A DNA stretch of 43,385 nt, taken from positions 1 through 43,385 of the forward strand of contig JAFZIG010000007.1 of NCBI GenBank assembly GCA_017554485.1, written 5' to 3'. The position numbers were made by a program, and so were the translations under genes. Within the stretch, counting starts at the first letter, position 1, and every line of letters begins with the position of its first letter. This stretch comes from Acidaminococcaceae bacterium. Lineage in GTDB: Bacteria > Bacillota > Negativicutes > Acidaminococcales > Acidaminococcaceae. Positions 18,997-42,585 of the stretch are shown here, one piece after another. The notes beneath the pieces were generated by a model that saw nothing but the letters and a program-made list of their open reading frames with translations, searched no databases and had not been told where the DNA came from.

Positions 18997-19171
18997 AAAA
19001 GCGTACAAGGTTTAAGCAAAACGTCGGGAGTGTTTGTTAAAATTCCATGAGATGAAATGTGCCGCAGCGGCGAGACTGTCTGAGGGGCGAAGCCCCGAGT
19101 TTCGAAGCCGCAGGCACATGAGTCCATGGAATAACAAACACGTACGGTTTTGCGAAATCTTGTACGCTTTT
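18997..19171. repeat. Structured intergenic repeat, copy 1
   Basis: An imperfect palindrome of 175 bp filling the gap between two convergent stop codons. Outer arms pair at 18997-19009 with 19159-19171. Inside are ATTCCATG/CATGGAAT (19042-19049, 19125-19132), ATGTGCC/GGCACAT, GCGGC/GCCGC (19067-19071, 19107-19111) and a GGGGC-GAA-GCCCC tip (19084-19096). Copies 2 and 3 share the inner layout in the opposite orientation. It probably ends transcription from both sides. Confidence 0.85.
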
Positions 19172-19177
19172 TAGTTT

Positions 19178-21820
19178 TTATTTATTCGTTGGCGCGTTAT
19201 ATCCAAAATGCAGACGGAAGAGTTTCCGCAGCCAGTCCACAACGATGATGGAAACGGCGCAGAGCAGGACAAAGCTCCACTCCTGCCCGTTCAGGGGCGC
19301 CGTGCGAAGTACGCTGCCGCCAAAAAGCGTCAGCAGGAACTGGATTAAAACGATACCGCCCATGACCTGGAGAAAGCCCGGATTATCCGTAATATGGTCC
19401 AGCAGATCCGGTCCTTCCACCCTGACGTTAAACCCGTTGGCCACCGCCATGAAAATATAAGCGCAGAAAAAGCCGGTGTATGTATAGATATGATCCGGCG
19501 CGTCGCGGAAAAGAGAATCCACCCAGGGACTCTTATAAAACGCAATCGCCACCAGGGTCATCCACAAGCCGCTGATTACGATGGTAGACATCATTCCTTT
19601 GGAAACAATGGGACCGCCCCGCTCCTTCGGTTTTTCCTGCAAATATTTTTCCAGCGCAGGCTCGCCGCCAAAGGCTAATGCAGCCAGCGTGTCCATTACC
19701 AGGTTGATCCACAGGATCTGGATGATCGTCAGCGGTTTTTCCACGCCGATAAAAGGCGCGATAAAGTTGATCAGCACAGCTGAAAAATTAATGGACAGCT
19801 GAAACGTAATAAATTTGCATATCGAATTGTAAATGGTGCGACCATACAGGATAGCTTGTTTGATGGAAAGGAAATTGTCGTCCAGAATGACGATGTCACC
19901 GGCTTCTTTGGCAACTTCGGTGCCGCTGCCCATGGCAAAACCCACATCCGCCCGTTTCAGGGCCGGGGAATCGTTGACACCGTCACCGGTCATCCCCACT
20001 ACCAGGTTCATTTCCTGGGCAATAGTCACCAGACGCAGCTTATCCAGGGGCAGCGCACGGGATACTACACGGAGGAAGGGCAGATTGAGTTTTACTTCTT
20101 CATCCGACATTGCTGCCAGTTCCTGGCTGGTCCACACCTGATCCTCAGGCCGCCGCAGCAACCCGGCGTCTTTGGCTATAGCCACTGCAGTTTCTTTTCG
20201 GTCCCCGGTAATCATAACGATCTGCACGCCGGCTTCATGCACTTTTCTGATTGCTTCCACCGCTTCCGGACGTACTTCATCACGGATAGCCAGAATGCCT
20301 ACCAGCGCCAGTCCCTTTTTCGGCAGTGCCGAACCGGGAACGATTCCCCGGCAGGTACACAAAGCCAGCATACGAATGGCCCGTCCCGCCAGTTCCAGCA
20401 TCCTTTCATCCAGAGACTGCTTCATCGCTTCCGTAAAAGCAAGGCGGCGCCCTTCTCCGTCCCAGTAATATTCACACAGGGGAAGCAGGTTTTCCGGCGC
20501 GCCTTTGGCCAGTGTATATTCCCGGCTGCCCTGCACTCCTGCAAAAGAATACTTGTTAGCACTGTTAAATGGCACAAAGGTACTCCGCAGGGGAAGGCCC
20601 ACAGCACGGTAATCGCCAATATAACGGCTCAATGCCTGCTCGGTGATGTTTCCGCCCAAAATCTTCCCGTCTGCCACCGCTGCCGAAGTATTAAGGACCA
20701 CATTCTCATAGGTAAATTCTTTTATGGTGCGCGGCAGCTTTTCAAAAGAATCGTATTCTTTCCTGTCACCTGTGATAAAACCGACGACCTCCAGCTTCCC
20801 TTTGGTGATAGTACCCGTTTTGTCGGTAAACAACAGGTTTAAACTACCTGCCGTTTCAATCCCGTTCAGCTTGCGGACCAGTACATGGTCGTCCAGCATC
20901 TTCCGCATATTCAGGGAAGAAACGATGGCAATCATCAGGGGCAGTCCTTCCGGCACGGCCATAACGATGATGATGACAGCCAGGATCAGGGCCTGCACCA
21001 CATCGCTGAGGACCTGGGCCGTATTGGCAACATAAAGAGACCATCCGCCCGCCAGAAACATCTTGTGCAGCAGCACCGCGATAAAAATCAGCAGGCCTCC
21101 CGCATAGCCGAAATAACTGATCTTGTCTGCCAGGTTCTTCAGTTTCAGCTTCAGCGGGCTGTCCCGTTCCACTTCCTTCAATTCCTGCGTCAGTTGCCCG
21201 TAGACGGATGCGTCGCCGATTTTCTCCGCCCGCATCAGGCCCTGTCCTTCTACCACGACAGAACCGCGATACAGACAGTACGGATTCAGAAAATCTGTTT
21301 CCCCGCCCCAGGAAAAAGCAGGGGAAGCAGGCTTCTTGTCCGCTTCTTCGCTTTCCCCGTTCAGTGCGGCCTGATCCAGTTTCAGCGAGCCTTCCAGCAA
21401 AATACCGTCCACAGGGACTTTGTCGCCGCTTTCCAGCTGCACCGCATCCCCGACGACAATATCGTCAATGCGCAGTTTCACCGGCTGTCCGTCGCGCCAT
21501 ACCTTGCAGGTGATGCGGCTTGCTTCCTCCTGCAGCTTCTGGAAAGCATTTTCGTTACTGTACTCAGACCAGGTGGAAACAAAGGTCGCCAGTATAATGG
21601 CAACAAAAATACCCGCCGTCTCGATCCAGTCCGCATACCCCATATAAACGAAGCCCACGTTGATCAGCAGGGCCACTATCAGGATACGAATGATGGGATC
21701 CTGGAAATTGTCCAGCAGTTTTTCAAAAAAAGTCTGTTGCGGCGGTTTGCTTAACGCATTGTTGCCGTATTTTTTTAATGACTCTTCAGCCTCTTGGCTG
21801 GTAAGACCAATATTAGCCAT
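19178..21820 (-). CDS. Calcium-translocating P-type ATPase (PMCA type)
   Basis: 880 residues. An inner-membrane pump that exports Ca2+. N-terminal cation-ATPase domain, actuator with NGES (154-157), M4 with PEGLP (290-294), phosphorylation motif DKTGTIT with D333, P-domain MITGDRKETA and GDGVNDSPALK, then M6 WINLVMDTLAALAFGGEP, which matches PMCA-type calcium ligands (N and D). The frame is open to 21958, but those codons translate the upstream repeat element; the ATG at 21820 with CGGAG seven bases before it begins the normal LTSQEAEESLKKYGNNAL domain. Repeat copies 1 and 2 flank the gene in inverted orientation. Confidence 0.93.
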   Translation of the reverse strand: MANIGLTSQEAEESLKKYGNNALSKPPQQTFFEKLLDNFQDPIIRILIVALLINVGFVYMGYADWIETAGIFVAIILATFVSTWSEYSNENAFQKLQEEASRITCKVWRDGQPVKLRIDDIVVGDAVQLESGDKVPVDGILLEGSLKLDQAALNGESEEADKKPASPAFSWGGETDFLNPYCLYRGSVVVEGQGLMRAEKIGDASVYGQLTQELKEVERDSPLKLKLKNLADKISYFGYAGGLLIFIAVLLHKMFLAGGWSLYVANTAQVLSDVVQALILAVIIIVMAVPEGLPLMIAIVSSLNMRKMLDDHVLVRKLNGIETAGSLNLLFTDKTGTITKGKLEVVGFITGDRKEYDSFEKLPRTIKEFTYENVVLNTSAAVADGKILGGNITEQALSRYIGDYRAVGLPLRSTFVPFNSANKYSFAGVQGSREYTLAKGAPENLLPLCEYYWDGEGRRLAFTEAMKQSLDERMLELAGRAIRMLALCTCRGIVPGSALPKKGLALVGILAIRDEVRPEAVEAIRKVHEAGVQIVMITGDRKETAVAIAKDAGLLRRPEDQVWTSQELAAMSDEEVKLNLPFLRVVSRALPLDKLRLVTIAQEMNLVVGMTGDGVNDSPALKRADVGFAMGSGTEVAKEAGDIVILDDNFLSIKQAILYGRTIYNSICKFITFQLSINFSAVLINFIAPFIGVEKPLTIIQILWINLVMDTLAALAFGGEPALEKYLQEKPKERGGPIVSKGMMSTIVISGLWMTLVAIAFYKSPWVDSLFRDAPDHIYTYTGFFCAYIFMAVANGFNVRVEGPDLLDHITDNPGFLQVMGGIVLIQFLLTLFGGSVLRTAPLNGQEWSFVLLCAVSIIVVDWLRKLFRLHFGYNAPTNK

Positions 21821-21846
21821 GTAGTCTCCGATATAATATACGTAAA

Positions 21847-22036
21847 AATGATGCGGTAATGATAAGACATCGCAAAACCGTCCACGATTGCTATTCCATG
21901 GATTTATTCGCCTGTGGCTTCGAAACTCGGAGCTTCGCTCCTCAAACAGTCTCGCCACGGCCGGCTCATTTCATCTCATGGAATGACGCAATCGTTTCCG
22001 ATGTTTTGCTCATGTCTTGTCATTTCCCGCATCATT
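21847..22036. repeat. Structured intergenic repeat, copy 2
   Basis: A 190-bp imperfect palindrome. Outer arms AATGATGCGG (21847-21856) and CCGCATCATT (22027-22036), the latter reaching into the stop codon of the YbjN-like gene. Inner stems are ATTCCATG/CATGGAAT, GTGGC/GCCAC (21914-21918, 21954-21958) and the tip GGAGC-TTC-GCTCC (21929-21941). It lies 26 bp before the calcium ATPase start. Confidence 0.85.
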
Positions 22037-22568
22037 AATGTACAGGATGAATCGGTCTCTCATCCTGTTCTTCTTCCAGATTAACGGCTACCGGTCCGCC
22101 CACCACCGCAGGCAGACGCAGCAGTTCGCTTTCCAGATGCGGCTGAATCACGTTCAACAGCATAACTATAATTACTTCCGGATCAAAGGTCTCATCATTG
22201 GCAACCAGGCTGCAGTCCAGTTCCAGATTGCCGTCCGGGGTAATTACATACTTAAAGGCTCCGAAGCGATGATTCAGCTGATTGAGGTATTTCAGCAATT
22301 CTTTCTCATTATTTTCATTCACAACCTTACGGCCTAGCAGCACCTTGATCATCCCGTAAATGGAATCATTCAGCTGCACCTGGACAAACTGCTGCTGCCC
22401 GGCCGTCTGCAGCCCGCTGTAATAAACGACTGTGCGGAACTGGTCATCGAATTCTTCCTTATGAAAACCGCCAACTTCATGTTCCTTCATAAATGCGTCA
22501 AACTTTTCCGCCTTTACTCTGGGCGGATTCGTGTTATCCATCTGGTCTTTTAAACTTTCTAATGCCAT
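22035..22568 (-). CDS. YbjN-like small acidic protein
   Basis: About 177 residues, no signal peptide or membrane segment. The central part (MIKVLLGRKVVNENNEKELLKYLNQLNHRFGAFKYVITPDGNLELDCSLVAND) resembles the YbjN/type III chaperone-like fold, a two-layer domain often found in stress-linked or chaperone proteins. The role here is unknown. The frame begins at a GTG (22577) that is part of the ribosome site AGAGAGGTG, so the ATG at 22568 is chosen. It follows the ABC transporter gene by 53 bp and is probably the last gene of the RND/ABC operon. The family call is by pattern only. Confidence 0.7.
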   Translation of the reverse strand: MALESLKDQMDNTNPPRVKAEKFDAFMKEHEVGGFHKEEFDDQFRTVVYYSGLQTAGQQQFVQVQLNDSIYGMIKVLLGRKVVNENNEKELLKYLNQLNHRFGAFKYVITPDGNLELDCSLVANDETFDPEVIIVMLLNVIQPHLESELLRLPAVVGGPVAVNLEEEQDERPIHPVH

Positions 22569-22621
22569 GTTAAACACCTCTCTGTTTTTTTATTGTCTTT
22601 AATATTCTTAAATAAAAGATC

Positions 22622-24349
22622 CTATATTTCCTGCCAGTACAGGGAATGGTTTGTTTTATCCAAGTATAACACATTTTGATGATATTTGCTCAACGTACTG
22701 CGATGGCCTACGCTGACCAATGTAGTACGCTTCGCGTTTTCCAGCAGCAGCGTGTAAACTTTTGCTTCCGTTTCCTCATCCAATGCGGAAGACGCTTCAT
22801 CCAGGAACAGCCAAACCGGTTTATAAATCAGTGCCCTTACAAAGGCCAGGCGCTGTTGCTCGCCCACAGAAAGAACGTGACTCCAGTCCGCTTCCATATA
22901 CAGCTTGTCGTACAGGTAGCCGATGCAGCAGTCCTCCATCAGTGCTTTCAGCTCTTCATCCGTCCGGCTTTCCGTACCGGGATATAGCAGGGATTCTTTC
23001 AGTGTGCCCAGAGGCAGATAAGGCCGCTGAGGGATGAACATTAGCTTATCTTCTGACGGTATTTCCAGTGTGCCTTTTACATAAGGCCAGATACCTGCAA
23101 GAGCCCGCAACAATGTACTTTTGCCGCTGCCGGAAACGCCCTTGATCAGCACATTGGTCCCCGGTTTCAGCGTAAAGGAAACGTTTTGCAAAACAGCGGA
23201 CTCATCCGGCAGGGTTACAGACATATCCGTCGCTGTAATAGCGTCAATAGCACCAGGCTTACGCTGCAGATCCTGCTGGGCGTTTTCCTGCTTCACCTGC
23301 TCCATGTGGAGACCGAAGCCGGTAAGACGTTCTACCACAGCCTGCCATTCCGCAATGGAGGAGTACATCTCTACAAAATAAGAAAGGCTTTCCTGTACGC
23401 GGCCAAAGGCGCTGGAAATCTGCATCAGGCCGCCTAAGGTAATCTCTTTCGCCAGATAGCGGGGCATGGCCACCACCAGTGGAAAGATGATAGCGATCTG
23501 GGAGTACCAGCTGTTGAGCCAGGTGAGCTGCTTCTGTTTCTTGATGATACTCCAGAAATTATTCAGCAACAGGGAAAAACGTTTTTTAAAAACGCTGCCT
23601 TCATGCCCCTCGCCGCTGTAGAAAGCGACACTTTCCGCATTTTCACGCATACGCATCATGGCAAAACGGAAATCCGCTTCGTATTTTTGCTGCACAAAAT
23701 TCAGTCCTACCAGCTTATTGCCCACTTTATAGGTCAGCCAGGTACCCAGGATGGAATACAGCAGGGCCGTCCATACCAGATAACCCGGAATATGGATATC
23801 CATACCGGCAACTTTGAACTCCAGGGGACCGGACAAGTTATAAAGTATCAGGACAAAGGAAGCAAAGGTCGTAAAGGCTTTTAAAATACCGATACCGAAG
23901 CGCAGCGTATATTCCACAAACATGCGGACGTCTTCACTGATACGCTGGTCCGGGTTATCCGTAGCCGTCCCGAACATCTGCAGGCGGTAATAAGTTTTAT
24001 GCTCCAGCCAGTCGTCAATGTACTCATTGGTCAGCCAGCGGCGCCAGTTGATGATCAGGACCTGCTGCAGGTAAAAGGCGTACACAGCCAGTATGATATA
24101 GATGAAAGCCAGCCAGCAGAAGTGAAACAGTTCGGAAAAAATCTTATCTTTTTCATAGTTCTGCAGTGCGCTGTAAAAAATATTGTACCACTGGTTCAGC
24201 TGCACCAGCATGAACACCACGCCTAATGTCAGCGCGATGATGGCCAGCAGCAGCAGATAGGCCTTTTTCTTTTCCTCACTCTGCCAGTATGATTTGGTCA
24301 GTGCCCAGACGTTTTTTACAAAACGGACACTGTCGTCCATTTTCTGCAT
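22622..24349 (-). CDS. ABC transporter, fused permease and ATPase (SbmA/YddA-like)
   Basis: 575 residues. The N-terminal membrane domain (about 30-330) has the SbmA/BacA/ABCD character: NQWYNIFYSALQNYEKDKIF near the start, WRRWLTNEYIDDWL, then DNPDQRISEDVRMF, the usual loop of the family. The ATPase (about 370-575) has Walker A GVSGSGKST, signature LSVGEQQR and Walker B WLFLDEASSALDE. YddA-type proteins sit in the inner membrane; peptide or lipid substrates are known for relatives, but the cargo here is not evident. The ATG is 26 bp after the RND pump stop with GAAGGTG upstream, so it is cotranscribed with the pump. Confidence 0.9.
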   Translation of the reverse strand: MQKMDDSVRFVKNVWALTKSYWQSEEKKKAYLLLLAIIALTLGVVFMLVQLNQWYNIFYSALQNYEKDKIFSELFHFCWLAFIYIILAVYAFYLQQVLIINWRRWLTNEYIDDWLEHKTYYRLQMFGTATDNPDQRISEDVRMFVEYTLRFGIGILKAFTTFASFVLILYNLSGPLEFKVAGMDIHIPGYLVWTALLYSILGTWLTYKVGNKLVGLNFVQQKYEADFRFAMMRMRENAESVAFYSGEGHEGSVFKKRFSLLLNNFWSIIKKQKQLTWLNSWYSQIAIIFPLVVAMPRYLAKEITLGGLMQISSAFGRVQESLSYFVEMYSSIAEWQAVVERLTGFGLHMEQVKQENAQQDLQRKPGAIDAITATDMSVTLPDESAVLQNVSFTLKPGTNVLIKGVSGSGKSTLLRALAGIWPYVKGTLEIPSEDKLMFIPQRPYLPLGTLKESLLYPGTESRTDEELKALMEDCCIGYLYDKLYMEADWSHVLSVGEQQRLAFVRALIYKPVWLFLDEASSALDEETEAKVYTLLLENAKRTTLVSVGHRSTLSKYHQNVLYLDKTNHSLYWQEI

Positions 24350-24375
24350 AAGAACACCTTCATCTTGCCACTTAA

Positions 24376-27300
24376 TTATGCCTGTTCCGCCTCATCTTCA
24401 TGCTCGCGTTTACTGAAAAACCGCTCTACCACCACAAAGAGAACCGGTATCAGAAAGATGCCCACAAAGGTATTGAAGGTCATACCCCCTACTACCGCGT
24501 TGCCCATGGACACACGGGAACCGGCGCCGGGACCGGTGGCTATGGCCAGGGGCAGACAGCCTAAGATAAAGGCGAAGGACGTCATCAGGATGGGACGCAG
24601 ACGGAGATGGGCCGCATTGACTGCAGCTGTTATCACATCCTGGCCGCTTTCCAGATTAATTTTGGCATATTCAACTATAAGGATCGCATTTTTGGCTGCC
24701 AGCCCGATCAGCATGATCATGGCGACCTGCATGTAAATATCATTCTGCTGGCCGCGGATGAACTGGGAACCTAAACAGCCCATGACCGCCGGGGGAACCG
24801 ACAGCAGCACCGCGATGGGAATCGTCCAGCTTTCATACAGCGCACACAGCACCAAGAACACAAACACCAGAGAAATAGCGTACAGCCCATAAGCCTGGCT
24901 TCCCGCTTCCCGTTCGTCCCGGCTCTGATCCGTCCATTCATAGGTGTAGGTGGTAGGCAGCACCTCGTGGGCTACTTCCTCCAGCGCCGCCATGGCCTGC
25001 CCGGTGGAATAGCCGTCAGCAGGAGTACCTGCAATCTTAAAGGCGCTGGCGCCGTTGAAGCGGGTGATGGCCGGCACCGTCATTTCCGGTTCCACGGTAA
25101 CCAGGGAATCCAGCGGAACCATCTCACCGGTATTACTCTTTACAAAGAAAAACCGCATATTCTTAATGTCGTCGCGGTATTCCGGCTGGGCCTGCATGAC
25201 CACTTTCCAGGTACGGCCAAAATTATTGAAGTCGTTTACCTCGGCGCCGCCCAGGAACGTCTGCAGGGTGGTAAACACACTGGCAACAGGAACATTCAGG
25301 GATTCCGCCTTTTCACGGTCCACATTAAACTTGTAACCGGGGGTATCCGTATTAAAAGTGGTATACGCGACCCCCACTTCCGGCCGCTGGTTGGCTTTCA
25401 TAACAAACTGCTGTGCGTACACGTTCATCTGGTCAATGGAATCGCCGGCCAGGTTCATGATGTACATACTCAGGGAACCCGTGCTGGACAGGCCCGGCAA
25501 TGCCGGCATATTAAAGGCCATAACATTCATTTCCGGCGTCTGGGACGCCAGCCCATAGGTACGCTGGATCAGTTCAAAAGTACTGGTGGAACGCTGGTCA
25601 TATTCTTCCAGCATGACCGGGATGATACCGGCGCTGGACTTGGGGGCGCCGCTCAGGATATCATACCCGTTAACCGGCATGACATATTTAACCCCCGGGA
25701 ACCCTCCCACCTTCCGGGCAAAATCTTCCATCTGCTTCATGCCCCGGTTGGAAGACGCTCCTTCCGGCAGGTTGTAGGAAATGATATACATTCCCTGGTC
25801 TTCTTCCGGAACATAACCGGTAGGAGTAATCTTGAACAGGAGGCCGGTCAGGATACAAATTACAATCAGGGCGCACATCATCAGCTTGGAATAGCGGATG
25901 CACTCGCTCACCCGTGTCGTATATTTCGCCAGGGTATTGGCGTACCATACATTAAAGCGGTAAATAATCTTGCCGATCAGGCCTTTATTGGCTTCTTCAC
26001 TGGTAGCGCTGTGCTGGGGTTTCAGAAGCTTGGCGCACAGGGCCGGCGTAAGGGACAGGGCCACTACGGCAGATAACATCATGGAAACGGAAATGGTCAG
26101 GGCAAACTGTTTGTACAACTGACCGGTGGAACCGCCCATGAAGGAAATAGGCACAAACACAGCCGCCAGCACACAGGCAATGGCCACTACCGGGCCGGAC
26201 ACTTCTTTCATGGCACGGTAGGTCGCTTCTTTGGGAGACAAACCGGTTTCCTGAATGTGGTGCTCTACCGCTTCCACCACGACGATGGCGTCGTCTACCA
26301 CCAGACCGATGGCCAGGATCATGGCAAACATGGACAGGGTATTGATGGAAAAGCCCAACAGCACGAAGGCGCCGAAGGTGCCGATCAGGGAAACGGGGAC
26401 CGCCAGCATAGGCACCATGGTGGCCCGGAAATTGCCCAGGAAAATATAAACGACAATCAATACCAGCACCAGCGCTTCAAAGAAGGTATGGGCAACTTTT
26501 TCCAAAGACTCTTTTACGAACTGGGTCTTGTCCTGGGCGATGATCAGTTTCATATCCGGCGGGAACCGGGTTTCCGCATCCGCCAGCACCTTTCTTATCT
26601 CCGCCACAGCTTCGATGGCATTGGCATCCGTAGTCAGGGAAACCGGATACATTACCGATTCGCCGGCTACGCCTTTATCCAGAAACAGGGAAGAAGGCGT
26701 ATCCATACGTTCGCCTTCGTATATATCCGCAATGTCTTTCAGCTTCAAAACCTGGCCGTTAGAAACACGGACAATGATATTCCCGAATTCTTCCGGGGTT
26801 TTCAGACGGCCCTGGGCACTGGCAGAATATTTGAATTCCTGGTCGCCGGTAGTGGGTTTGGAACCGATAGAACCTACCGGAGCCTGGATATTCTGAGACT
26901 GAATGGCAGCTGCCACTTCTGCAGCGGTCAGTCCCAACTGGGCCATCAGGTCCGGCTTTAATTCCACACGCATGGAGTATTCCGGTCCGTATTCGCCTAC
27001 GGAAGAAACACCCTTGACACGCTTCACCGGATCCACTACGTTGGATGCCCCATAGGCTTTCAGGAACATGGCGTCATAGGTCTTATTGGGCGAGACCAAG
27101 GTAAAATACATGATGTCCTGGGAAGACATCTTGGCCGTGGTAATACCATACTGGGTAACCTCGGTGGGCATGGAAGCCTTGGCCTGGTCCACGCGGTTCT
27201 GCACTTCCACGGAAGCAATGTCGCCGTTCTTTTCCAGGTTAAAGTTAACGTCCAGCACATAACGGCCCGTGTTAGTAGAGGTAGAACGCATATCCCGCAT

Positions 27301-33383: not shown

Positions 33384-34298
33384 TCACTTCTGCATGATCC
33401 ACTCATTGTAGTTTCCAAGATGCTCCCGGGCCGAATCGTAGGCAATCCAGCCGGCAATGAGATTCACGGTATAGGCCCGGGGCAATGTACGGAACACAAT
33501 TTTTGCCCGCAGGGGGTGCGCCATGACCATATCAAAATGCTTCTGCATGCGCTTCAGGTCCGGCAGGATCCGGTCCGTTAGGCTGTTAATGGCAACCGTT
33601 TTAAAACCGGCATGGCTGAAATGCGCCTTCCAGGCTTCTTCGTCTTCAATTTGGGCAAAGGCGCCGCCATGCTCTGTTACGGACAATGCGGTCTGTATCT
33701 CCCTGCTATAGGTCTCAAAAGGATATTTTGTCACGTAATCCCAAATCAGAAAATGGCCGCCGGGCTTCAGCACGCGGTACACTTCCGCCATCAGCTTATT
33801 CTTTTTCTCACTGTTGACATACACAACGGTCTCCACGCCGTAGACCACATCAAATGTATTGTCCGGGATATCTGGCAAGGAAGTGTAATCCTGCTTCTGG
33901 ATCGTCAGGTTGGCAGGCTTCTCCTTCAGCTCTCTGGGAAAAAGATCTATCCCCAGAAACTCCTTGTCCGGATGGCTCTTGGCCAGATGCAGCAGGTTTT
34001 CCCCCTGACCGGGGCCCAGTTCCAGCACTTTGCCTCCGGGCGGGGCATAGTTTATGGCTACGTCCGGTTGATAGAACATGTCATCATAGGAAAAGGTTTC
34101 TCCGTCTTTGGATACAATAAAATGCATATTGCCTTTGCCGTTATAGATGTGGCGATAACGGGAATGGTTTTCTTTAAAATAGGCAATGATGTGTTCTGGG
34201 TCGTTATGATTTTCCGTAAGAAATTTATCCAAGTCAATGAACTTTTCCATGTAATGGATTTTATCAGCAACCGTCTGGGGCTTTGAATCACCACTCAT
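33384..34298 (-). CDS. Class I SAM-dependent methyltransferase
   Basis: About 304 residues. The Rossmann core has motif I VLELGPGQGENLLHLA, the acidic end of strand 2 in FLGIDLFP, FDVVYGVETVVYVN and the post-motif LKPGGHFLIWDY. A C-terminal part of about 100 residues is helical. The substrate is not evident; the layout resembles small-molecule or sterol-type methyltransferases. A TTG five codons upstream overlaps the AAAGGGAG ribosome site, so the ATG at 34298 is used. It follows leuB by 79 bp on the same strand and may be read through from the leu operon. Confidence 0.85.
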   Translation of the reverse strand: MSGDSKPQTVADKIHYMEKFIDLDKFLTENHNDPEHIIAYFKENHSRYRHIYNGKGNMHFIVSKDGETFSYDDMFYQPDVAINYAPPGGKVLELGPGQGENLLHLAKSHPDKEFLGIDLFPRELKEKPANLTIQKQDYTSLPDIPDNTFDVVYGVETVVYVNSEKKNKLMAEVYRVLKPGGHFLIWDYVTKYPFETYSREIQTALSVTEHGGAFAQIEDEEAWKAHFSHAGFKTVAINSLTDRILPDLKRMQKHFDMVMAHPLRAKIVFRTLPRAYTVNLIAGWIAYDSAREHLGNYNEWIMQK

Positions 34299-34377
34299 GC
34301 AGTATCTCCCTTTCAAATAAGCAATTGCTTCATCGTTTTGTCGATGGTTTTAGTTATAACTACAGAACCCGCAATCT

Positions 34378-35451
34378 TTACGCTTCCAGCAATGCTTTCG
34401 CCACCAGATCACCCATCTCCTGGGTGTTGACCTTGGTCATGCCTTCACCAAACAGGTCCGCTGTACGGTAACCGGCTTCATACACCTTGTCAACGGCTGC
34501 TTCCACCGCATCCGCCGCTGCCTGCAGATCCAGGGAATAACGGAACAGCATGGCTGCGGAAAGGATAGTGCCCGTGGGATTGGCGATGCCCATGCCCGCA
34601 ATATCCGGCGCGCTGCCGTGGATGGGCTCATAAAGACCGGTGCCGTCGCCCAGGCTGGCGCTGGGCAGCAGGCCGATGGAACCGCCCAGCACGGAAGCTT
34701 CGTCCGATAAAATGTCGCCAAAGATGTTATTGGTCAGCACCACGTCAAACTGGCCGGGGTTCAGCACCAGCTGCATGGCGCAGTTGTCAACATATAAATG
34801 ATTCAGTTCGATTTCGGGATACTCTTTCTTCTGCATTTCTGTAACGATTTTACGCCACATGCGGGATTCCGCCAGTACGTTGGCCTTGTCCACAGAGGTC
34901 ACCTTGCCCCGGCGCACTTTAGCTGCTTCAAAAGCCTTCCGGGCGATGCGTTCCACTTCCGGACGGGTGTAAAGGTCAACGTCCGACGCGGTCTCCACAC
35001 CGTCAACTAAGGCCGCTTCATTGTGGGTCCCGAAATAAATGCCGCCGGTCAGTTCACGGACGATCAAAAGATCCGTATTCTCTACCCGCTCCGGTTTCAG
35101 CGGGGAAAGATGGGCGGTAAAACGGCTCACCTTCATGGGCCGCAGGTTGCAGTACAATCCTAAGTCTTTACGGATGCGCAGCAGCCCTTTTTCCGGACGG
35201 ATGGAAGGATCCACGTTATCCCATTTGGGTCCGCCTACCGCGCCTAACAAAACAGCGTCAGCAGCTTTTGCGGATTTCTGCGTCACTTCTGGATAAGGAT
35301 CGTTATAAGCGTCAATGGCGCAGCCGCCCAGCAGCTGATGGTCATACTCCAGGCTGAAGCCAAACTTTTTCGCCGCCGCGTCCATTACTTTAACCGTTGC
35401 GGTTACAATTTCCGGGCCGATACCGTCGCCCGGCAATAAGGTAATTTTCAT
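34378..35451 (-). CDS. leuB: 3-isopropylmalate dehydrogenase
   Basis: 357 residues. Oxidises and decarboxylates 3-isopropylmalate to the leucine keto acid using NAD+. Visible: LLPGDGIGPE at the start, GAVGGPKWD, RELTGGIYFG, the Mg-binding region SDEASVLGGSIGLLPSASLG, and EPIHGSAPDIAG near the C-terminus. Two upstream start options exist in frame, but AAGGAG ten bases before the ATG at 35451 marks the start. Third gene of leuC-leuD-leuB, separated from leuD by a hairpin. Confidence 0.95.
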   Translation of the reverse strand: MKITLLPGDGIGPEIVTATVKVMDAAAKKFGFSLEYDHQLLGGCAIDAYNDPYPEVTQKSAKAADAVLLGAVGGPKWDNVDPSIRPEKGLLRIRKDLGLYCNLRPMKVSRFTAHLSPLKPERVENTDLLIVRELTGGIYFGTHNEAALVDGVETASDVDLYTRPEVERIARKAFEAAKVRRGKVTSVDKANVLAESRMWRKIVTEMQKKEYPEIELNHLYVDNCAMQLVLNPGQFDVVLTNNIFGDILSDEASVLGGSIGLLPSASLGDGTGLYEPIHGSAPDIAGMGIANPTGTILSAAMLFRYSLDLQAAADAVEAAVDKVYEAGYRTADLFGEGMTKVNTQEMGDLVAKALLEA

Positions 35452-35505
35452 AATCGACAGTCTCCTTGTCATTGTAATTTCTGTATGTGTTCAGATAAAC
35501 AGCGT

Positions 35506-35532
35506 AAGGCGAAGCCAAAACGGCTTCGCCTT
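35506..35532. terminator. Hairpin between leuD and leuB
   Basis: A perfect 11-bp stem (35506-35516 with 35522-35532) and 5-base loop. The T run is on the + side, where no gene ends. On the minus strand the tail is poor, so it may only partly stop leuCD transcription or stabilise its 3' end. Confidence 0.6.
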
Positions 35533-35537
35533 TTTTA

Positions 35538-36017
35538 TTATGCCTGTGCCTTTGCGTAGTTTACCAGGCCGCCGCAGTCCGCGATCTTCTGGCAGAATTC
35601 CGGCAGCGGTTTCGTTTTGATGACCAGGTTCTTATTAACGATTCTAATTTCACCGGTCTTCAGGTCCACTTCCACGTCGTCGCCCTTTTCAATCTTTTCC
35701 ACATCCGGGCCGATCTCCAGCACCGGCAGGCCGATGTTGATGGCATTGCGGTAGAAGATGCGGGCAAAGCTGTCCGCGATGATGCATTTGATGCCTTTCA
35801 CTTTAATCACAACAGGCGCGTGCTCCCGGGAGGAACCGCAGCCGAAGTTCTTGCCCGCCACCATGATCTCATCTTTCTTTACATTGGGGGCAAAGGTGGT
35901 GTCGATGTCTTCCATGGCGTGTTCCGCCAGTTCGTTGAAATCAGAAATATTCAAATAACGGGCCGGGATGATTACATCCGTATCCACATGGTCCCCGTAA
36001 CGCCAGATCTTGCTCAT
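35538..36017 (-). CDS. leuD: 3-isopropylmalate dehydratase small subunit
   Basis: 159 residues, the short archaeal/HacB-like form. Swivelling domain with [12 protein letters not shown], the substrate-binding loop. It works with LeuC to isomerise 2- to 3-isopropylmalate. Its ATG overlaps the leuC stop (ATGA), so expression is coupled and the subunits are made in equal amounts. Confidence 0.95.
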
Positions 36018-37276
36018 CCTAATACCTCCTCTGCCGAAGCGATATAGCCTTTTACCGCGCTGGCCGCTGCCGTGTAGGGGCTGGCCAGGTACACTTCACT
36101 GTCCACATGGCCCATCCGCCCGCGGAAATTGCGGTTGGTGGTGGAAACGCAGCGCTCCCCTGCTGCCAGGATGCCCATGTAGCCGCCCAGGCAGGGTCCG
36201 CAGGTGGGCGTGGAAACCGCCGCGCCGGCGTTGATGAAGATATCCACATAGCCTAAACGGATGGCTTCCTGGTACACTTCCTGCGTAGCCGGAATGATGA
36301 TGCAGCGCACGTTGTCGTTTACCTTATGGTCTTTCAGCACTTCCGCAGCCTGGGCGATATCTTCCAGCCGCCCGTTGGTGCAGGAACCGACAACCACCTG
36401 GTCGATTTTGATGTGATGGGATTCGCTGACGGGATGGGTGTTCTCCGGCAGGTGCGGGTAGGAAACCACCGGCACCAGCTTGGACAGGTCCATCTGTACC
36501 GTCTGCACATACTCTGCGTCCGGGTCCGGTTCCACGGCCGTCCAGGGACGGGTCACACGACCCGCAAGGAAGGCTTTTGTCTTTTCATCCACAGGGAAGA
36601 TGCCGTTCTTGCCGCCGGCCTCAATGGCCATATTGCAGATGGTGAAACGGTCGGCCATTTCCAGTTCAGCAACGCCGGGTCCGGTAAATTCCAGGCTCTG
36701 GTACCGGGCTCCGTCCACGCCGATCATGCCGATGAGGGTTAAGATCAGGTCTTTGCCCTTTACATACTTGGGCATTTTGCCTGTCAGTTCCACTTTAATG
36801 GCAGCAGGGACCTTGAACCAGGTGGTACCGCTGGCCATGGCGCAGCCGATATCCGTCTGGCCCATACCGGTGGACAGGGCGTTCAATGCGCCATAGGTAC
36901 AGGTGTGGGAGTCAGCGCCGATAACGATCTCGCCGGGAGCCACCAGGCCTTTGTCCGGCAGCAACGCATGCTCAATGCCCATGCGTCCCACTTCAAAATA
37001 ATTGGTGATATTATGCTTTCTTGCAAAATCCCGCATCTGTTTGCACAGGGTTGCGGATTTAATATCTTTGCAGGGAGAAAAATGATCCGGCACCAGGGCA
37101 ATCTTGTCTTTGTTAAAGACAGGGCGCCCAATCTTTTCAAACTCATTGATGGCAGGCGGTCCGGTGATATCGTTGGCCAGAATCAGGTCCACCTGGGAAA
37201 CCAGCAGGTCGCCGGCCTCCACAAATTCCCGTCCCACATGCATGGCCAGAATCTTCTGCGTCATTGTCATGCCCAT
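36014..37276 (-). CDS. leuC: 3-isopropylmalate dehydratase large subunit
   Basis: 420 residues, the HacA-like size class. Aconitase-fold enzyme with a [4Fe-4S] cluster; the ligand cysteines are in VVGSCTNGR and [20 protein letters not shown] is the active-site loop. First gene of the leuCDB operon. GAGGAGG lies seven bases before the ATG. A TATAAT is present near 37300 in the leader but the -35 is weak. No T-box or obvious attenuator is seen in the 110-bp leader. Confidence 0.95.
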
Positions 37277-37352
37277 AAGAAACTCCTCCTCATTACATTA
37301 TATTTACAGTATCAATAATTGTCCGTTAAACAGAACCTCTTTATTAAATTAT

Positions 37353-37371
37353 TTGCCGCAGGCAACGGCAA
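37353..37371 (-). terminator. Weak terminator-like hairpin after the NCS2 permease gene
   Basis: A 6-bp stem TTGCCG/CGGCAA (37353-37358 with 37366-37371), followed on the minus strand by an AT-rich tail without a strong T run, 18 bp past the permease stop. Confidence 0.4.
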
Positions 37372-37388
37372 CTATGACATATTTGTCT

Positions 37389-38777
37389 TTATATCAAAAT
37401 ATACTTCAGTATAAATATAACTGCCAGGATATACATCAGCGGACCCACCCGTCTCGCATGTCCGGTCAGCGTATTGACAACGGCGTAGGAAATGATACCG
37501 AAGGAAATACCTTCAGAAATGCTGTAAGTAAACGGCATAGCGATGATGCACATGTAAGCGGGAATCGCTTCCGGCAGATTGCCGAAGTCAATCTGGCTGA
37601 TGGAAGAAACCATCAGGAATCCGACCATGACCAGCGCCGGAGCTGTCGCGAATGCAGGGATCGCCATAAAGAACGGGGCCAGGAACAGGGACAGGAAGAA
37701 GAGCACCGCTGTGGTCACCGCCGTCAGGCCCGTACGCCCGCCTTCGCTGACACCGGCAGCCGATTCCACAAATGTGGTAACGGTACTGGTACCCATCAGA
37801 GCACCGGCAATCGTACCTAAAGAGTCTGACAGCAGGGCGCCTTTGATGTGAGGCAGCGTGCCATCCTTTTCCAGCATGTTGGCTTTAGAGGCTACACCCA
37901 TCAATGTTCCCAGTGTATCAAAGAAATCAACAAACATGAACGATAATACAATAACCAGAAAATCAATGGAAGCTACCTTGCTGAAATCTAATTTCAGTAA
38001 GATCGGCGAAGGGTCTGCCGGCAGGAAAGAGGCTGCACCGGCGGAAAAGTCCGGCAGCACGCTAAATGCTCCCACCTTGGGATCCGGCACATACAGGCCG
38101 GTCACTTCACAGATTATGCCCAGGACCCAGGTTGCCAGGATGCCCCAGAGGATACCGCCTTTCACATCCCGCGCCAACATGATGCCGGTGATAATGATAC
38201 CGATAATGGCCAGCACCACTGTAATGCCCGTGGTATGGAAAGTACCGCCCAGCATAGACTGTTTAAAGTTGAACAGGGCAATCTTGGTAGCTGGGTTGCC
38301 CACTATAATCTGCGCGTTGAAAAGGCCAATCAGGGCTATGAACAGACCAATACCTACGGATACGGCCCGTTTCAGGCTCAGGGGAATGATGTTGAACACG
38401 GCCTCGCGAATGTTGGTCAGGGACATCAGGAAAAAGAGAACTCCCTCCACACAGACTGCAGCCAGAGCCATCTCCCAGGTATAGCCCATCTGCTTGACAA
38501 CCGTAAAGGCAAAGAAGGCATTGAGCCCCATGCCTGCAGATAACGCAAAAGGATAGTTGGCAAAGGCCGCCATCAGCAGCGTGGCAAAACAGGAGGCCAG
38601 GGCTGTAACGGTCAGCACCGCTCCTTTGTCCATGCCGGTCACGCTCAGAATCGACGGGTTAACAGCCAGGATGTAGGCCATTGTCATAAAGGTGGTGATA
38701 CCGGCCATGACCTCCGTTTTTATCGTGGTGCCGTTTTCCCGCAGGTGAAATAGTTTTTCCAATGCTCCGTCCTGCAT
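37389..38777 (-). CDS. NCS2-family purine permease (AzgA/PbuG-like)
   Basis: About 462 residues with 12-14 hydrophobic helices. Signature regions are TFMTMAYILAVNPSIL near the N-terminus, SAGMGLNAFFAFTVV, FVDFFDTLGTLMGVA and GTSTVTTFVESAAGVSEGGRTGLTA. These match the adenine/guanine/hypoxanthine proton symporters of the AzgA branch. An in-frame ATG four codons upstream is itself part of the ribosome site (ATGGAGG), so the ATG at 38777 is chosen. It has its own promoter about 115 bp upstream; I looked for a purine riboswitch and saw none. Monocistronic. Confidence 0.92.
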   Translation of the reverse strand: MQDGALEKLFHLRENGTTIKTEVMAGITTFMTMAYILAVNPSILSVTGMDKGAVLTVTALASCFATLLMAAFANYPFALSAGMGLNAFFAFTVVKQMGYTWEMALAAVCVEGVLFFLMSLTNIREAVFNIIPLSLKRAVSVGIGLFIALIGLFNAQIIVGNPATKIALFNFKQSMLGGTFHTTGITVVLAIIGIIITGIMLARDVKGGILWGILATWVLGIICEVTGLYVPDPKVGAFSVLPDFSAGAASFLPADPSPILLKLDFSKVASIDFLVIVLSFMFVDFFDTLGTLMGVASKANMLEKDGTLPHIKGALLSDSLGTIAGALMGTSTVTTFVESAAGVSEGGRTGLTAVTTAVLFFLSLFLAPFFMAIPAFATAPALVMVGFLMVSSISQIDFGNLPEAIPAYMCIIAMPFTYSISEGISFGIISYAVVNTLTGHARRVGPLMYILAVIFILKYILI

Positions 38778-38888
38778 GATATCCTCCATTTCCCGGTTCT
38801 GCCTTTTACATTCTTTAATACATTTTGAATGATAAATACATTAAACTGCATTAAGTAATTAAAGAGGCTGCAACCTGAATTATATTTT

Positions 38889-38917
38889 ATTATACCATTT
38901 TATGAAAATCCTGTGAA
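38889..38917 (-). promoter_or_regulatory. Promoter of the purine permease gene
   Basis: Minus-strand -35 TTCACA (38912-38917), 17-bp spacer, -10 TATAAT (38889-38894), about 110 bp before the start codon. Confidence 0.7.
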
Positions 38918-38936
38918 CTGAATTTTACGATATATA

Positions 38937-38992
38937 AAGACAGTAGAGGAAAAACAACCATATGTTAATACAAGCTTCGCTTTTACTGTCTT
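38937..38992 (-). terminator. Possible long-loop hairpin after the zinc-ribbon gene
   Basis: AAGACAGTA (38937-38945) pairs perfectly with TACTGTCTT (38984-38992) across a 38-base loop, eight bp past the gene stop, with a TTTATATA tail on the minus strand. The loop is long for a terminator. Confidence 0.4.
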
Positions 38993-38999
38993 CTTAACA

Positions 39000-40271
39000 T
39001 CAGTAATTCCCGTTGGTTCTCTTCAGTTCTTCAAAATCCACACCGGGATCCAGCCAGATATTCTCTGCTGCCACAAACACATCCGGATTCTGCGTGTTCT
39101 GGTACACATGGTCCCATCTGATATCCGCTTCTACCACGTCCGGGTTCCCGTACCCGGGGGAGGCCGTATTGTACGTGTTCACCTCCCGGAGCATCTCGGA
39201 ACGCATGTTGGCCACCCGCTGATGAGTGGCGGCGGTATTGGCGTTCATTTCCCGCATGGTGTTCATGGTATGGTTGTGCGCATCCTGTAAAATCCGGGAA
39301 CGCCGGTCCCAGGAAGCCATCTCCTGCTGATGAATGGCCATGGCGGTCTGGTTCTTTAAGTTCTGAATATACTGGATCAGGGATTGCCGGATCCTGTCCA
39401 GATCCGGCGCTTCCCGGATGCTCTCGTTGATCTTCCGGGCAATGGGGTATATACTGTCAAATTTATCTTTGTCCGCCACAATGATAAACTCGTACTGGGT
39501 TTCCCAGTAATGCTCGTCCGTATTGAACATCTGCCCCATGAGCTGGCCGAAGAAACCACCCCCGGACATGGACTGCATTCCTTTGTGCAGATCGTTCAGC
39601 CTGGTTTCCACCGCAGCGATTTTCTGCTTCCCGTCCTGACCGATAAAAGAGTAGAATATACGTTTCCATTCGATGGTAATCTGGCTAAACCCCTGAGACG
39701 CATACATTTCATAAATGGTTTCCTGCCGTTTCTGCTCCGCTGTGTCGGCCTCTTCCACTTTCAGCTTTTGTCCGGACGCAGGCTGCAGATCCCGCTGCAC
39801 CAGGTAATCGCAGTACTGCTCCGCCCCAAAAGGCGAGCCGACCCGCAGGTACGAACCCAGCACATCGATCTGCTTCAACAAAGGAACCCGGGACAGCTTC
39901 CTGTCCGTATATAAATTGGGACCCCGGTACAGAACGACGGCCGAACGGTCGGGCGACCTGTATTCTGCTTCCACCACAAAGGGGTTCCCCACATGGTCCC
40001 CGTAATAATCGTCCGGCGCCTGCCGGGCGCAGACACTCCAGCCCTGAGGCGCATAGCTTTTAATGGGACACAGCCCGCTACAGTCATTGCCCTGAATGAT
40101 AGGGATGCCCTGGACTGCACCGGTTCCCGTGTATGGGTCTGTTCTTTTTTGCAGCTTCTCGCGCCGCGGGTGCATCAGGTACTCCGCCCCGCAATAGGCA
40201 CACTGTACTACATTTCCCCGTCCGTCCCAGTGCAGCGCCGCGCCGCACTGCTGGCATTTCAGGTTGATCAT
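39000..40271 (-). CDS. Zinc-ribbon protein of unknown function
   Basis: 423 residues. A C4 zinc ribbon at the N-terminus (C6, C9, C24, C27, with CxxCG and CxYCG spacing) is followed by a basic linker. The middle (about 75-300) is a globular region I do not recognise, and a helical segment at about 290-370 is probably coiled-coil, with repeated methionine, asparagine and glutamine. No signal peptide or membrane helix, so cytoplasmic. AGGAGG precedes the ATG. It stands alone between the serA terminator and the purine permease. Zinc-ribbon headers of this kind occur on proteins that recruit partners, but no function can be assigned. Confidence 0.75.
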   Translation of the reverse strand: MINLKCQQCGAALHWDGRGNVVQCAYCGAEYLMHPRREKLQKRTDPYTGTGAVQGIPIIQGNDCSGLCPIKSYAPQGWSVCARQAPDDYYGDHVGNPFVVEAEYRSPDRSAVVLYRGPNLYTDRKLSRVPLLKQIDVLGSYLRVGSPFGAEQYCDYLVQRDLQPASGQKLKVEEADTAEQKRQETIYEMYASQGFSQITIEWKRIFYSFIGQDGKQKIAAVETRLNDLHKGMQSMSGGGFFGQLMGQMFNTDEHYWETQYEFIIVADKDKFDSIYPIARKINESIREAPDLDRIRQSLIQYIQNLKNQTAMAIHQQEMASWDRRSRILQDAHNHTMNTMREMNANTAATHQRVANMRSEMLREVNTYNTASPGYGNPDVVEADIRWDHVYQNTQNPDVFVAAENIWLDPGVDFEELKRTNGNY

Positions 40272-40332
40272 ACATGCCTCCTGCTTGTCTTTACACTGTG
40301 CGAATTTCAGTTAAAAACATTCTGTAACAAAC

Positions 40333-40364
40333 AGAGGAAGCGCAAACTGCTTTGCGCTTCCTCT
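40333..40364 (-). terminator. Terminator of serA
   Basis: A perfect 14-bp stem (40333-40346 with 40351-40364) with a 4-base loop, followed by TGTTTGTT on the minus strand, 19 bp past the serA stop. Confidence 0.88.
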
Positions 40365-40383
40365 CAAATAACACTGATACAAT

Positions 40384-41961
40384 TTAAATTTTCAGCAGCC
40401 TAACTTTTGAAATGCCATCCAGGCCCTGCAACAGTTTCAGGGTTTCTTTAGCCACTTCGCTGTCAACGGTCAGGAACATCATGGCCACGCCGTTTTGCTG
40501 GTTACGGCTGACCTGCATGGTAGCAATGTTGACCTTGGATGCACCCAAAAGCGTACCGATCTGACCAATCATGCCGGGTTTGTCTTCGTTATTGACCGCC
40601 AGCATAAAGGCAGCGGGCTCAATATCAAACTGGTAGCCGTTGATGTCTTTAATGCGTACTTCCCCCTCCGGATTCACGTTGCCGGCTGCCGTAAAGATGC
40701 CTTTCTTTGTATGTACTTTTACCGTCAGCAGGTTAGCCGGACTGTTTTCCTTGCTTTCCACAACCTCGACACCGCGGCCTTCCGCCGTCAGTTCCGCATT
40801 GACGTAGTTGACGCGTTCTTTCAGCACAGGCTCAAACAGTCCTTTCAGCACGGCGCGGGTCACCATATCCGTTTCCATTTCAGCCAGGGCACCGCTGTAA
40901 ATCACTTCTACCTTTTCTACCGCGTCATGTTCCAACTGGTAATAGAGCTTGCCCAGATCCTCGCCCAAAGCCATGATCTTCTTTACTGCATCCAGTTCGC
41001 TGGCCTGCAGGGCCGGCAGGTTCACCGCATTGGGCACCATTTCACCCCGCAGCGCGGCGATAACTTCTTCCGCAATGGCGATACCGACGTTGTCCTGAGC
41101 CTCCTGGGTATCGGCGCCCAGGTGCGGAGTTAATACGCACTGAGGCAGATCGATCAACGGAGAAATAGGCTTCGGTTCGTCAACCAGCACGTCCACACCG
41201 GCGCTGGCCACGATGCCTTCCCGGATCGCCCTGGCCAGATCCTGCTCGTTGTACAGACCGCCCCGGGCGCAGTTTACCACCCGGACACCCTTTTTGCATT
41301 TCAGCCATTCTTTATAGGTGATCATATTCATGGTCTCTTCGGTCTTCGGTGTATGGATGGAGATTACGTCGGATTCCTTCAGCAGCTCATCCAGGGTTTC
41401 GCATTTCTTGACATTATATTTTTTGAAGCGGGCGTCGGCAATGTAAGGGTCGTAGGCAATAACCTTCATGCCAAAAGCTTGCATACGGGTGGTCAGCAGC
41501 CCGCCGATACGCCCCAGACCGATAATGCCCAAGGTCTTGCCTAACAGTTCCATGCCTTTCAGTCCATCCCGGTTCCACACACGGCTTTCAATCATCTTGT
41601 GGGCCTTCACGGTATTGCGGCAGGAAGCCAGCAACAGGCCTACCGTATGTTCGCAGGCGGAAACGATGTTGGATTCCGGTGTATTCACGACGATGATACC
41701 GCGTTTGGTAGCGCCTTCCATCTGGATATTATCCACACCGTTGCCGGCACGGCCAACTACTTTCAGGTTGGTAGCGTGTTCGTAGAACTCTTCGTTGATC
41801 TTCGTTACGCTGCGGACGACGATGGCGTCGTATTCGGGAATCCGTTTCAGCAGCTCTTCCCGGGACAGGTTCATCTCCACATCAACCTGCAGATCTTCCT
41901 GCGCCTTTAACAACGCAACGCCTTTGTCCGAAATCTTTTCCGTTACAATAATTTTTTTCAT
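40384..41961 (-). CDS. serA: D-3-phosphoglycerate dehydrogenase
   Basis: 525 residues, the long form. First step of serine synthesis: oxidises 3-phosphoglycerate with NAD+. The substrate domain begins at the N-terminus, with VVGRAGNGVDNI. The NAD-binding Rossmann fold has LGIIGLGRIG, then HTPKTEETM, VNCARGG and the catalytic histidine in LTPHLGADT. An intervening domain (about 315-445) and a C-terminal ACT domain (about 450-525) sense serine. AAGGAGG precedes the ATG. A T-box leader upstream links expression to uncharged tRNA, most likely tRNA-Ser. Confidence 0.95.
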   Translation of the reverse strand: MKKIIVTEKISDKGVALLKAQEDLQVDVEMNLSREELLKRIPEYDAIVVRSVTKINEEFYEHATNLKVVGRAGNGVDNIQMEGATKRGIIVVNTPESNIVSACEHTVGLLLASCRNTVKAHKMIESRVWNRDGLKGMELLGKTLGIIGLGRIGGLLTTRMQAFGMKVIAYDPYIADARFKKYNVKKCETLDELLKESDVISIHTPKTEETMNMITYKEWLKCKKGVRVVNCARGGLYNEQDLARAIREGIVASAGVDVLVDEPKPISPLIDLPQCVLTPHLGADTQEAQDNVGIAIAEEVIAALRGEMVPNAVNLPALQASELDAVKKIMALGEDLGKLYYQLEHDAVEKVEVIYSGALAEMETDMVTRAVLKGLFEPVLKERVNYVNAELTAEGRGVEVVESKENSPANLLTVKVHTKKGIFTAAGNVNPEGEVRIKDINGYQFDIEPAAFMLAVNNEDKPGMIGQIGTLLGASKVNIATMQVSRNQQNGVAMMFLTVDSEVAKETLKLLQGLDGISKVRLLKI

Positions 41962-42090
41962 TTTGTTTTCCTCCTTTTCGTTTGGCAGGCGCTCAATTAC
42001 GTATTATTAAAATTTTGCCATGACACGCCGCCTGCAGGGAGACTCTGTTCTTTTTCCCTGCGTTTCCCAAGGACCGAAGCGAAAGCAATG

Positions 42091-42330
42091 AAAAACTCCC
42101 GTCCTTCCATAAGGACGAGAGTTCGTATTTGTCTGAGCTCGCGTGGTGCCACCTTAGTTCACTGTAAAAAACACTTACAGCCTCATTCCCGGGATATCGG
42201 CCGGAACCGGACAGGTTGCAACCCCTGCCTTCTCCAGAGCGGAATTCAGTCTTCGACAGGACGGTTCGCACTGCCCACCGTCTCTCTGCACAGCCTGGGA
42301 CTTACTTTTCTCTTTCATGAAATTGCGTTT
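42091..42330 (-). promoter_or_regulatory. T-box riboswitch of serA (probably tRNA-Ser)
   Basis: On the minus strand the leader shows stem-I elements (AGTA, CAGAGAGACGG, then a GNUG/AACCG distal loop), a candidate specifier region GAATTCCGCTCTGGAG, the T-box core AAGGTGGCACCACGCGA (complement of about 42138-42154) and a terminator hairpin (42095-42106 with 42111-42122) with T run. The T-box core would pair in the antiterminator when uncharged tRNA binds. UCC (Ser) is the specifier that fits serA; UUC is the neighbouring alternative. Confidence 0.9.
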
Positions 42331-42346
42331 TGCTTTTATAAAAGAG

Positions 42347-42375
42347 ATTATATGCGTTTCACCGCAAAAAGTCAA
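42347..42375 (-). promoter_or_regulatory. Promoter of the serA T-box leader
   Basis: Minus-strand -35 TTGACT (42370-42375), 17-bp spacer, -10 TATAAT (42347-42352). This places the transcription start near 42340, just before stem I of the T-box, about 380 bases before serA. Confidence 0.9.
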
Positions 42376-42403
42376 TACAGAAGTTTTGTAAAATTTGAAA
42401 CAT

Positions 42404-42585
42404 AAAACAGCATCGGACCAGGCAACGCAAAAACGTCAATGATTGCTATTCCATGGATTTATGTGCCTATGGCTTCGAAACTCGGGCTTCGCCCTCAAAC
42501 AGTCTCGCCATGACAGCACATTTCACCTCATGGAATGACGCAATCGTTTCCTATGTTTTGCTTATGCCTTACCCGATGCTGTTTT
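42404..42585. repeat. Structured intergenic repeat, copy 3
   Basis: A 182-bp imperfect palindrome starting 8 bp after the waaA stop. Outer arms are AAAACAGCATCGG (42404-42416) and CCGATGCTGTTTT (42573-42585), an ordinary-looking terminator stem. Inside are ATTCCATG/CATGGAAT, ATGGC/GCCAT (42469-42473, 42507-42511) and the tip GGGC-TTC-GCCC (42484-42494). Same orientation as copy 2. It probably ends waaA transcription. Confidence 0.85.

Follow-up and report, generated by a model that had tools for sequence, protein, structure and literature searches.

Long hairpin elements of Succiniclasticum lie reversed between species at orthologous loci, likely through template switching between their inverted arms

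The stretch of DNA analysed here, a 43,385-nucleotide contig (C75, accession JAFZIG010000007.1) of a 177-contig Acidaminococcaceae assembly (GCA_017554485.1), is referred to below as the window, and its source as this genome. It carries a long hairpin element in the gap where a CNNM/CBS/CorC gene and a cation ATPase gene converge, a second copy upstream of the ATPase gene and a third further along the contig (Table 1). In Succiniclasticum ruminis DSM 9236 the protein adjoining copy 1 has a counterpart with 85% identity, so this genome is probably that of a Succiniclasticum species (Negativicutes, Acidaminococcaceae); a 16S search of it gave no match. All three copies are members of a family of dispersed long hairpins of Succiniclasticum, each with a core of ~140 nt plus arms. 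These hairpin elements often lie reversed between species, likely as a result of template switching at replication between the inverted arms, by which the core is flipped and one arm copied.

Table 1. Coordinates of the hairpin copies and of other features in the window
Feature	Position	Strand	Remarks
Copy 1, whole hairpin	18991..19179	+	sequence, fold; covariance model match 19002-19168
Copy 1 core, AGCAAAAC..GTTTTGCG	19015-19154		outer arms on both sides
Copy 2, whole hairpin	21847..22036	-	core 21871-22010; sequence, fold; covariance model match 21857-22023
Copy 3, whole hairpin	42404..42586	-	core 42426-42562; sequence, fold; covariance model match 42412-42575
Copy 3 arms	about 42405-42425 and 42563-42586
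ATPase mechanical open reading frame	19178-21958	-	opens within copy 2
Direct repeats, 49 nt	6159-6252 and 8600-8694		96% and 78%; ~2.44 kb apart
tRNA gene	8655-8728		at the second direct repeat

A first-pass annotation of the window had described three intergenic repeats with a shared architecture and covarying stems, and this description proved accurate. On a common strand, the inner stems of copies 1, 2 and 3 read GCGGC/GCCGC, GTGGC/GCCAC and ATGGC/GCCAT, and the tips GGGGC-GAA-GCCCC, GGAGC-GAA-GCTCC and GGGC-GAA-GCCC, while the unpaired flanking bases, GAGACTGT(C/T)TGAGG and GAGTTTCGAAGCC, are constant. Folding revealed that each copy is a single long imperfect hairpin of ~185 nt, reaching past the inner stems described earlier, with energies of -93.9, -87.5 and -83.6 kcal/mol for copies 1, 2 and 3 (z -11.8, -8.3 and -8.2), and none of 200 shuffled sequences was as stable. 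The mechanically called open reading frame of the ATPase starts inside copy 2, and its first ~40 codons are element sequence, which accounts for many 40-residue matches at element positions; the true start of the gene is probably downstream.

The same annotation had proposed a covariance-model search of the genome and its relatives, and this uncovered a family far bigger than three copies. When this genome was searched for a 14-base motif with 0-1 mismatch allowed, 29 sites were found, 22 of them exact and the window's three among them; at one of the 29 (L024) no surrounding element could be seen by eye. A covariance model built from 22 copies of this genome gave 45 matches in it, of which 31 exceeded 90 bits and two were opposite-strand duplicates. 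Of the 14 Succiniclasticum genomes searched, 11 carry the element, with 8 to 70 matches each and 349 matches altogether (E up to 0.01, short forms and some opposite-strand duplicates included). Among other genomes of the family Acidaminococcaceae it was found in 0 of 45, with filters stricter than in the genus search. The set analysed below comprises 102 copies from the 11 genomes, drawn from the best-scoring of the 349 matches, so decayed copies are under-represented; these 102 remained from 114 matches after leaving out two that had long inserts, four weak opposite-strand duplicates, four nested copies and two that repeated G013 copies. Rfam at the gathering threshold returned a single tRNA in the window and nothing at the element, and copies 1 and 3, the two that were run at E up to 1, had no match either, in line with the earlier remark that the repeats were not recognised as a named family, as far as RNA families in Rfam are concerned. 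Copy 1 had no match in plasmid and phage collections, and a pattern match on a viral contig (L302) was discarded, as it lies inside a coding sequence and is similar to none of the compared loci. Open-licence articles in PubMed Central yielded neither a Succiniclasticum repeat nor a family of inverting hairpins in bacteria, which does not prove absence in print.

To compare orientation, an automatic survey covered 22 loci with ortholog pairs and found it differing at 12, and at 13 of 22 once copy 3 was checked directly. Copy 3 had been scored as the same in the survey, its ortholog in genome G009 (L218) also matching weakly on the opposite strand. Against this ortholog the core of copy 3 matches at 120/124 positions (0.968) when inverted and at 84/128 as it stands, the flanks are collinear, and the neighbouring gene is 86.0% identical to its G009 counterpart. 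Copy 2 has the same orientation as its G009 ortholog (119/134), as does copy 1 compared with the element at the equivalent site of G007 (111/138). In the two-sided pairs both flanks are collinear. At 6 of the 13 reversed loci the cores are at least 0.95 identical (L141/L162 0.993, L145/L154 0.986, L232/L247 0.971, L152/L161 0.964, L215:3690/L239 0.957, and copy 3), versus 0.83 between copies generally, which suggests that these six cores were flipped in place; at two further loci (L113 and L144 groups) the reversed cores are ~0.91 identical. At site f1 the core of G001, G003, G004 and G011 lies on the strand opposite to that of G009, with 92-95% identity, and G004 and G009 differ in orientation at 2 of 4 compared loci, where the flanks are 82-96% identical. 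In the two clearest reversed pairs the orientation switches 23-37 nt outside the core. A maximum-likelihood tree of the cores placed L145/L154/L164 (96.4/99), L232/L247 (97.6/100) and L215:3690/L239 (83.3/100) in clades of their own, with a weak clade for L141/L143/L162 (75.1/77). The longest perfect repeat between the arms has a median of 10 and a maximum of 30 nt, and with such short repeats an assembly artefact is unlikely.

The outer arms are the most variable part of the element between loci, yet they are complementary inside each copy. With one copy taken from each of 66 loci, 92.1% of the outer-arm cells pair within the copy, and 67.7% after right arms were exchanged between loci. When orthologs were compared, arm positions changed on both sides had kept pairing in both copies in 35 cases and not in 14. 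This tally skipped six ortholog pairs with differing arm offsets and took L218 on its weaker strand, which has little weight since the arms of L218 are perfect repeats. The inner arms carry the usual asymmetric marker in 76 of 102 copies and the same marker on both sides in 6 (L120, L128, L137, L161, L218 and L231), and in L218 and L231 the two arms are identical over 30 nt. Orthologs exist for four of these marker-symmetrised copies (L161, L218, L231 and L128), and each of the four lies at a reversed locus, with three loci altogether. Another ortholog pair, L153 in G011 and L235 in G009, has cores that are 0.956 identical and arms that are quite different but internally paired.

Covariation is standard evidence for selected RNA structure, and covariation statistics had been proposed for the element. 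In the alignment of 22 copies of this genome, with 54 pairs, 96.0% of the cells are paired versus 89.0% after shuffling. Both sides have changed in 22 of the 54 pairs, compared to a shuffled mean of 11.1, and 0 of 500 shuffles reach 22, although this control leaves the shared descent of the copies in. The covariation score is 0.245, versus 0.114 for shuffled alignments and at most 0.079 with slid partners. The added copies thus did not display the random, non-compensating stem changes that the first-pass annotation had named as evidence against its reading. That reading, of stems kept as a selected structure, is supported in many more copies as to covariation and conserved unpaired bases. Selection is not the only possible explanation, because elements are reversed at orthologous loci and the arms have become alike in a few copies. 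Of 106 rows scanned, 11 could not be parsed, and the apical loops were mainly GNA triloops (GAA 57, GCA 11, GTA 7 and GGA 4), which are unusually stable in DNA.

Gene context was examined for the 59 copies with long flanks. Neighbouring genes are convergent at 19, divergent at 6 and codirectional at 31 (17 and 14 by orientation), with a one-sided gene call at 3, and a mechanical open reading frame of at least 100 codons runs across the element in 4. T-runs occur 8-34 nt from the core on the 3' side in 55 of 100 copies, on the 5' side in 59 and on both sides in 40, against 30, 31 and 12, respectively, in a control zone 36-62 nt out. Based on these features, a role as bidirectional terminator or 3' end is predicted at many loci.

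In the 102 copies, cores from one genome are on average 0.829 identical and cores from different genomes 0.830. The closest relative of a copy lies in another genome in 82 cases and in the same genome in 20 (expected 13.5). Most copies must therefore be old, with some spread within genomes. Of the weak matches fetched, 7 of 11 are short forms that kept the arms and lost the core mostly or wholly. Several of these join at short repeats, for example TTGCG or ATCG (by eye), as slipped deletion would give, and G001 has a short form without core at the site of copy 2. At sites f2, f3 and e1 the element is missing in some relatives, where gain and loss are indistinguishable, and these relatives also lack the arms, for which prior loss and an element never present would look the same. 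Sites e3, e5 and f1 were dropped as empty sites when remnants or short forms turned up there, and at e6 and e7 alignment could not resolve occupancy. The L141/L162 core, at 0.993, stands out from the adjacent sequence, at 0.84 and 0.89 (binomial P about 1e-7 for an assumed divergence of 0.13), while some orthologous cores are no better conserved than their flanks (L119/L142 0.835, L157/L233 0.768).

Locus-specific paired arms, reversals of orientation and marker-symmetrised copies are three observations that fit template switching. When replication switches template between the inverted arms, the core would be flipped in place, and the same process would copy one arm onto the other. Arm matching would then be in part a product of the switching itself, and some of the "compensatory" change may come from mutation. 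For a bidirectional terminator, the putative role of many copies, the direction of the core would be irrelevant. Both arm homogenisation and spacer inversion have been described for template switching between inverted arms (passages of PMC8604942), as have compensatory changes and loop inversions in RNA genes (passages of PMC8794818). We infer that template switching, and not a recombinase, lies behind the flips, and that the cores of the best loci flipped in place. With arm repeats this short, homologous recombination seems a less likely cause. More tentatively, and with somewhat less than an even chance of being right, we propose that each Succiniclasticum genome contains tens of flipping hairpins, with cores of >130 nt turning in place over short evolutionary time and arms rewritten pairwise, so that covariation arises at the DNA level across the genus. 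If flipping in place is true, hairpin inversion, known up to ~50 bp in chloroplasts, would extend to >130 nt at several bacterial loci, and if it is true genus-wide, textbook RNA covariation would be manufactured at the DNA level. A family that both covaries and is inverted at orthologous loci offers many replicates for parting selection from template-switch mutation.

Several results weigh against template switching, or limit its reach. An inversion of >130 nt far exceeds the reported sizes, since the spacer inversions in the passages of PMC8604942 and PMC8794818 are tiny, with 2-5 bp substitutions in yeast genes and loops of up to 7-8 nt in rRNA. At five reversed loci (L111, L112, L128, L129 and L132 groups) the cores are 0.81-0.89 identical, like copies in general, and for these a separate insertion or replacement is a possible origin. 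The same possibility applies to the reversed groups that are not monophyletic in the core tree (L111, L112, L113, L128, L129 and L144), and one extra member falls within each of the L118 and L123/L218 clades. Loss of pairing is under way too, as single-side arm changes kept it in 31 cases and lost it in 45 to 47. The association of symmetrised arms with reversal is not significant, given that 13 of 22 loci are reversed and that L161 and L231 share a locus. Finally, on the strand that reads GAGACTG, G.U pairs outnumber A.C pairs 35 to 18 in the outer arms (P 0.027) and 47 to 16 in the inner stem (P 0.0001), an excess that arm copying does not predict. These counts used one copy per locus and left out one column pair with G.U in 99/102 copies, and the P values are optimistic as the copies do not represent independent data. 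The one-strand bias suggests that folding of one strand, as RNA or single-stranded DNA, is selected in part, although biased mutation could be an alternative source.

The G.U excess on one strand is what a selected non-coding RNA or 3'-end structure would give, with covariation from selection alone and inversions as incidental events, and several retained cores are indeed far more conserved than the adjacent genes. We give this explanation a low probability, since the middle stem shows no excess (14 to 13), orientation relative to codirectional neighbours is balanced, and cores have been lost at some loci or, as at L157/L233 and L119/L142, are conserved no more than their flanks. Independent insertion, in which a mobile hairpin like the Yersinia element YPAL repeatedly entered palindromic hot spots such as terminators in either direction, so that the arms are host dyads, would explain why the arms are locus-specific and why a T-run lies 8-34 nt from the core, on one side or both, in 74 of 100 copies. 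YPAL targets sites at or beside dyad symmetry, according to passages of PMC2229807. Moreover, orthologous positions at site e1 (L111, L219, L249 and L214) carry non-sister cores, and different arms occur at the same place both there and in the L153/L235 pair. Yet reversed cores from different species are sister lineages at the best loci, which is unexpected if each genome's own copies had inserted separately, and the relatives without element at f2, f3 and e1 have no arms either. Arm 12-mers are also rare elsewhere, with 9 matches in 89,513 masked bases, about chance level, and a short form accounts for two of the nine. The idea of insertion into host terminator loops lost its place as leading model because of the arm-less vacant sites and the sister reversed cores, and we keep it as an unlikely rival.

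A dedicated site-specific recombinase acting at the inner arms (AGCAAAAC/GTTTTGCG), with the core flipped as a switch, would make the family one of invertons. This would agree with inner arms that are conserved at nearly all loci, with a segment bounded by inverted repeats found in both orientations (between species only), and with the differing orientation even between G004 and G009. We regard it as very unlikely, since the two clearest pairs switch outside the inner arms, core orientation has no apparent effect on neighbouring genes, and no recombinase was identified in a search limited to the Y1 transposase family PF01797. The latter occurs in 8 of 14 genomes, but not in step with the element: it is absent in G002, G007, G009 and G012, which carry the element (70 matches in G009), and present in G008, which has none. 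By the same comparison, and unlike in REP/REPIN systems with RAYT, presence of the element does not go with a Y1 (RAYT-like) transposase. In G001, 31 PF01797 matches were found. Many are fragments located at the ends of contigs, suggesting that a Y1 insertion sequence recently expanded and broke up the assembly.

Template switching as the likely source of the reversals has its nearest parallels in small inversions. In chloroplasts, hairpin-associated inversions of 4-50 bp are known (Kelchner and Wendel 1996, cited in passages of PMC12371153 and PMC6005162), in which, as here, a segment between inverted repeats in non-coding DNA turns in place recurrently. They affect single loci, whereas the Succiniclasticum element is >130 nt, bacterial and a repeated family. 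The template-switch inversions in the passages of PMC8604942 and PMC8794818 share both predictions, core inversion and paired arm changes, but have few-base spacers and do not concern a dispersed element family. Among dispersed palindromes, the element resembles most YPAL (RU-2) of Yersinia, which according to passages of PMC2229807 is an intergenic palindrome of ~168 bp with target duplications of 3-26 bp, unlike the TA-ended mini-transposons and tied to dyad symmetry. However, the searches made gave no relation between the two, and the passages of PMC2229807 do not mention inversion in place. ERIC and Correia (NEMIS) elements are likewise dispersed repeats of 100-200 bp with long stem-loops; TA-ended terminal repeats and target duplications are described for them in passages of the same paper. 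The element, as a dispersed non-coding repeat of ~100-200 bp with a stem-loop, shares this general character of bacterial miniature inverted-repeat transposable elements. Its arms vary between loci, with some groups sharing longer ends (by eye). The longest word shared by the flanks is 9 nt in 6 of 100 copies versus 1.6 by permutation, and longer in 0 versus 0.9 expected. At site f3, blast overlaps of 8-9 nt hinted at a target duplication, but the junction alignments are ambiguous. Mini-transposons are defined by terminal repeats and target duplications, and the element is not filed as a member of these transposable elements of the ERIC, Correia or RUP type. Terminator-like stem-loops of low-GC Firmicutes have complementary A/T edges near gene ends and may be bidirectional terminators too (passages of PMC1590033), but the Succiniclasticum element has a conserved core of ~140 nt inside the stem.

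Several further arrangements were observed. In this genome, L133, L136, L139 and L140 are nested copies, in which an element with its own arms (GTTGAGCGTTGAGG.. / ..CCCTCAACGC) lies inside another copy. At L191 and at L217 (4320-4553 and 13999-14230) the element ends bracket an unrelated longer insert, another palindromic repeat. A second repeat family of ~167 nt, 92-98% alike, is found at L214:16902-17069 and at L192, and G012 contains many matches to it. Some contigs break off within or next to an element (L143, L126, C32 of G000, and C39 and C31 of G011), as repeats, or a sample with mixed orientations, would be expected to cause. Elsewhere in the window, the second of the two 49-nt direct repeats lies at the tRNA gene, and the first resembles a partial tRNA copy, an arrangement like that of an integration site.

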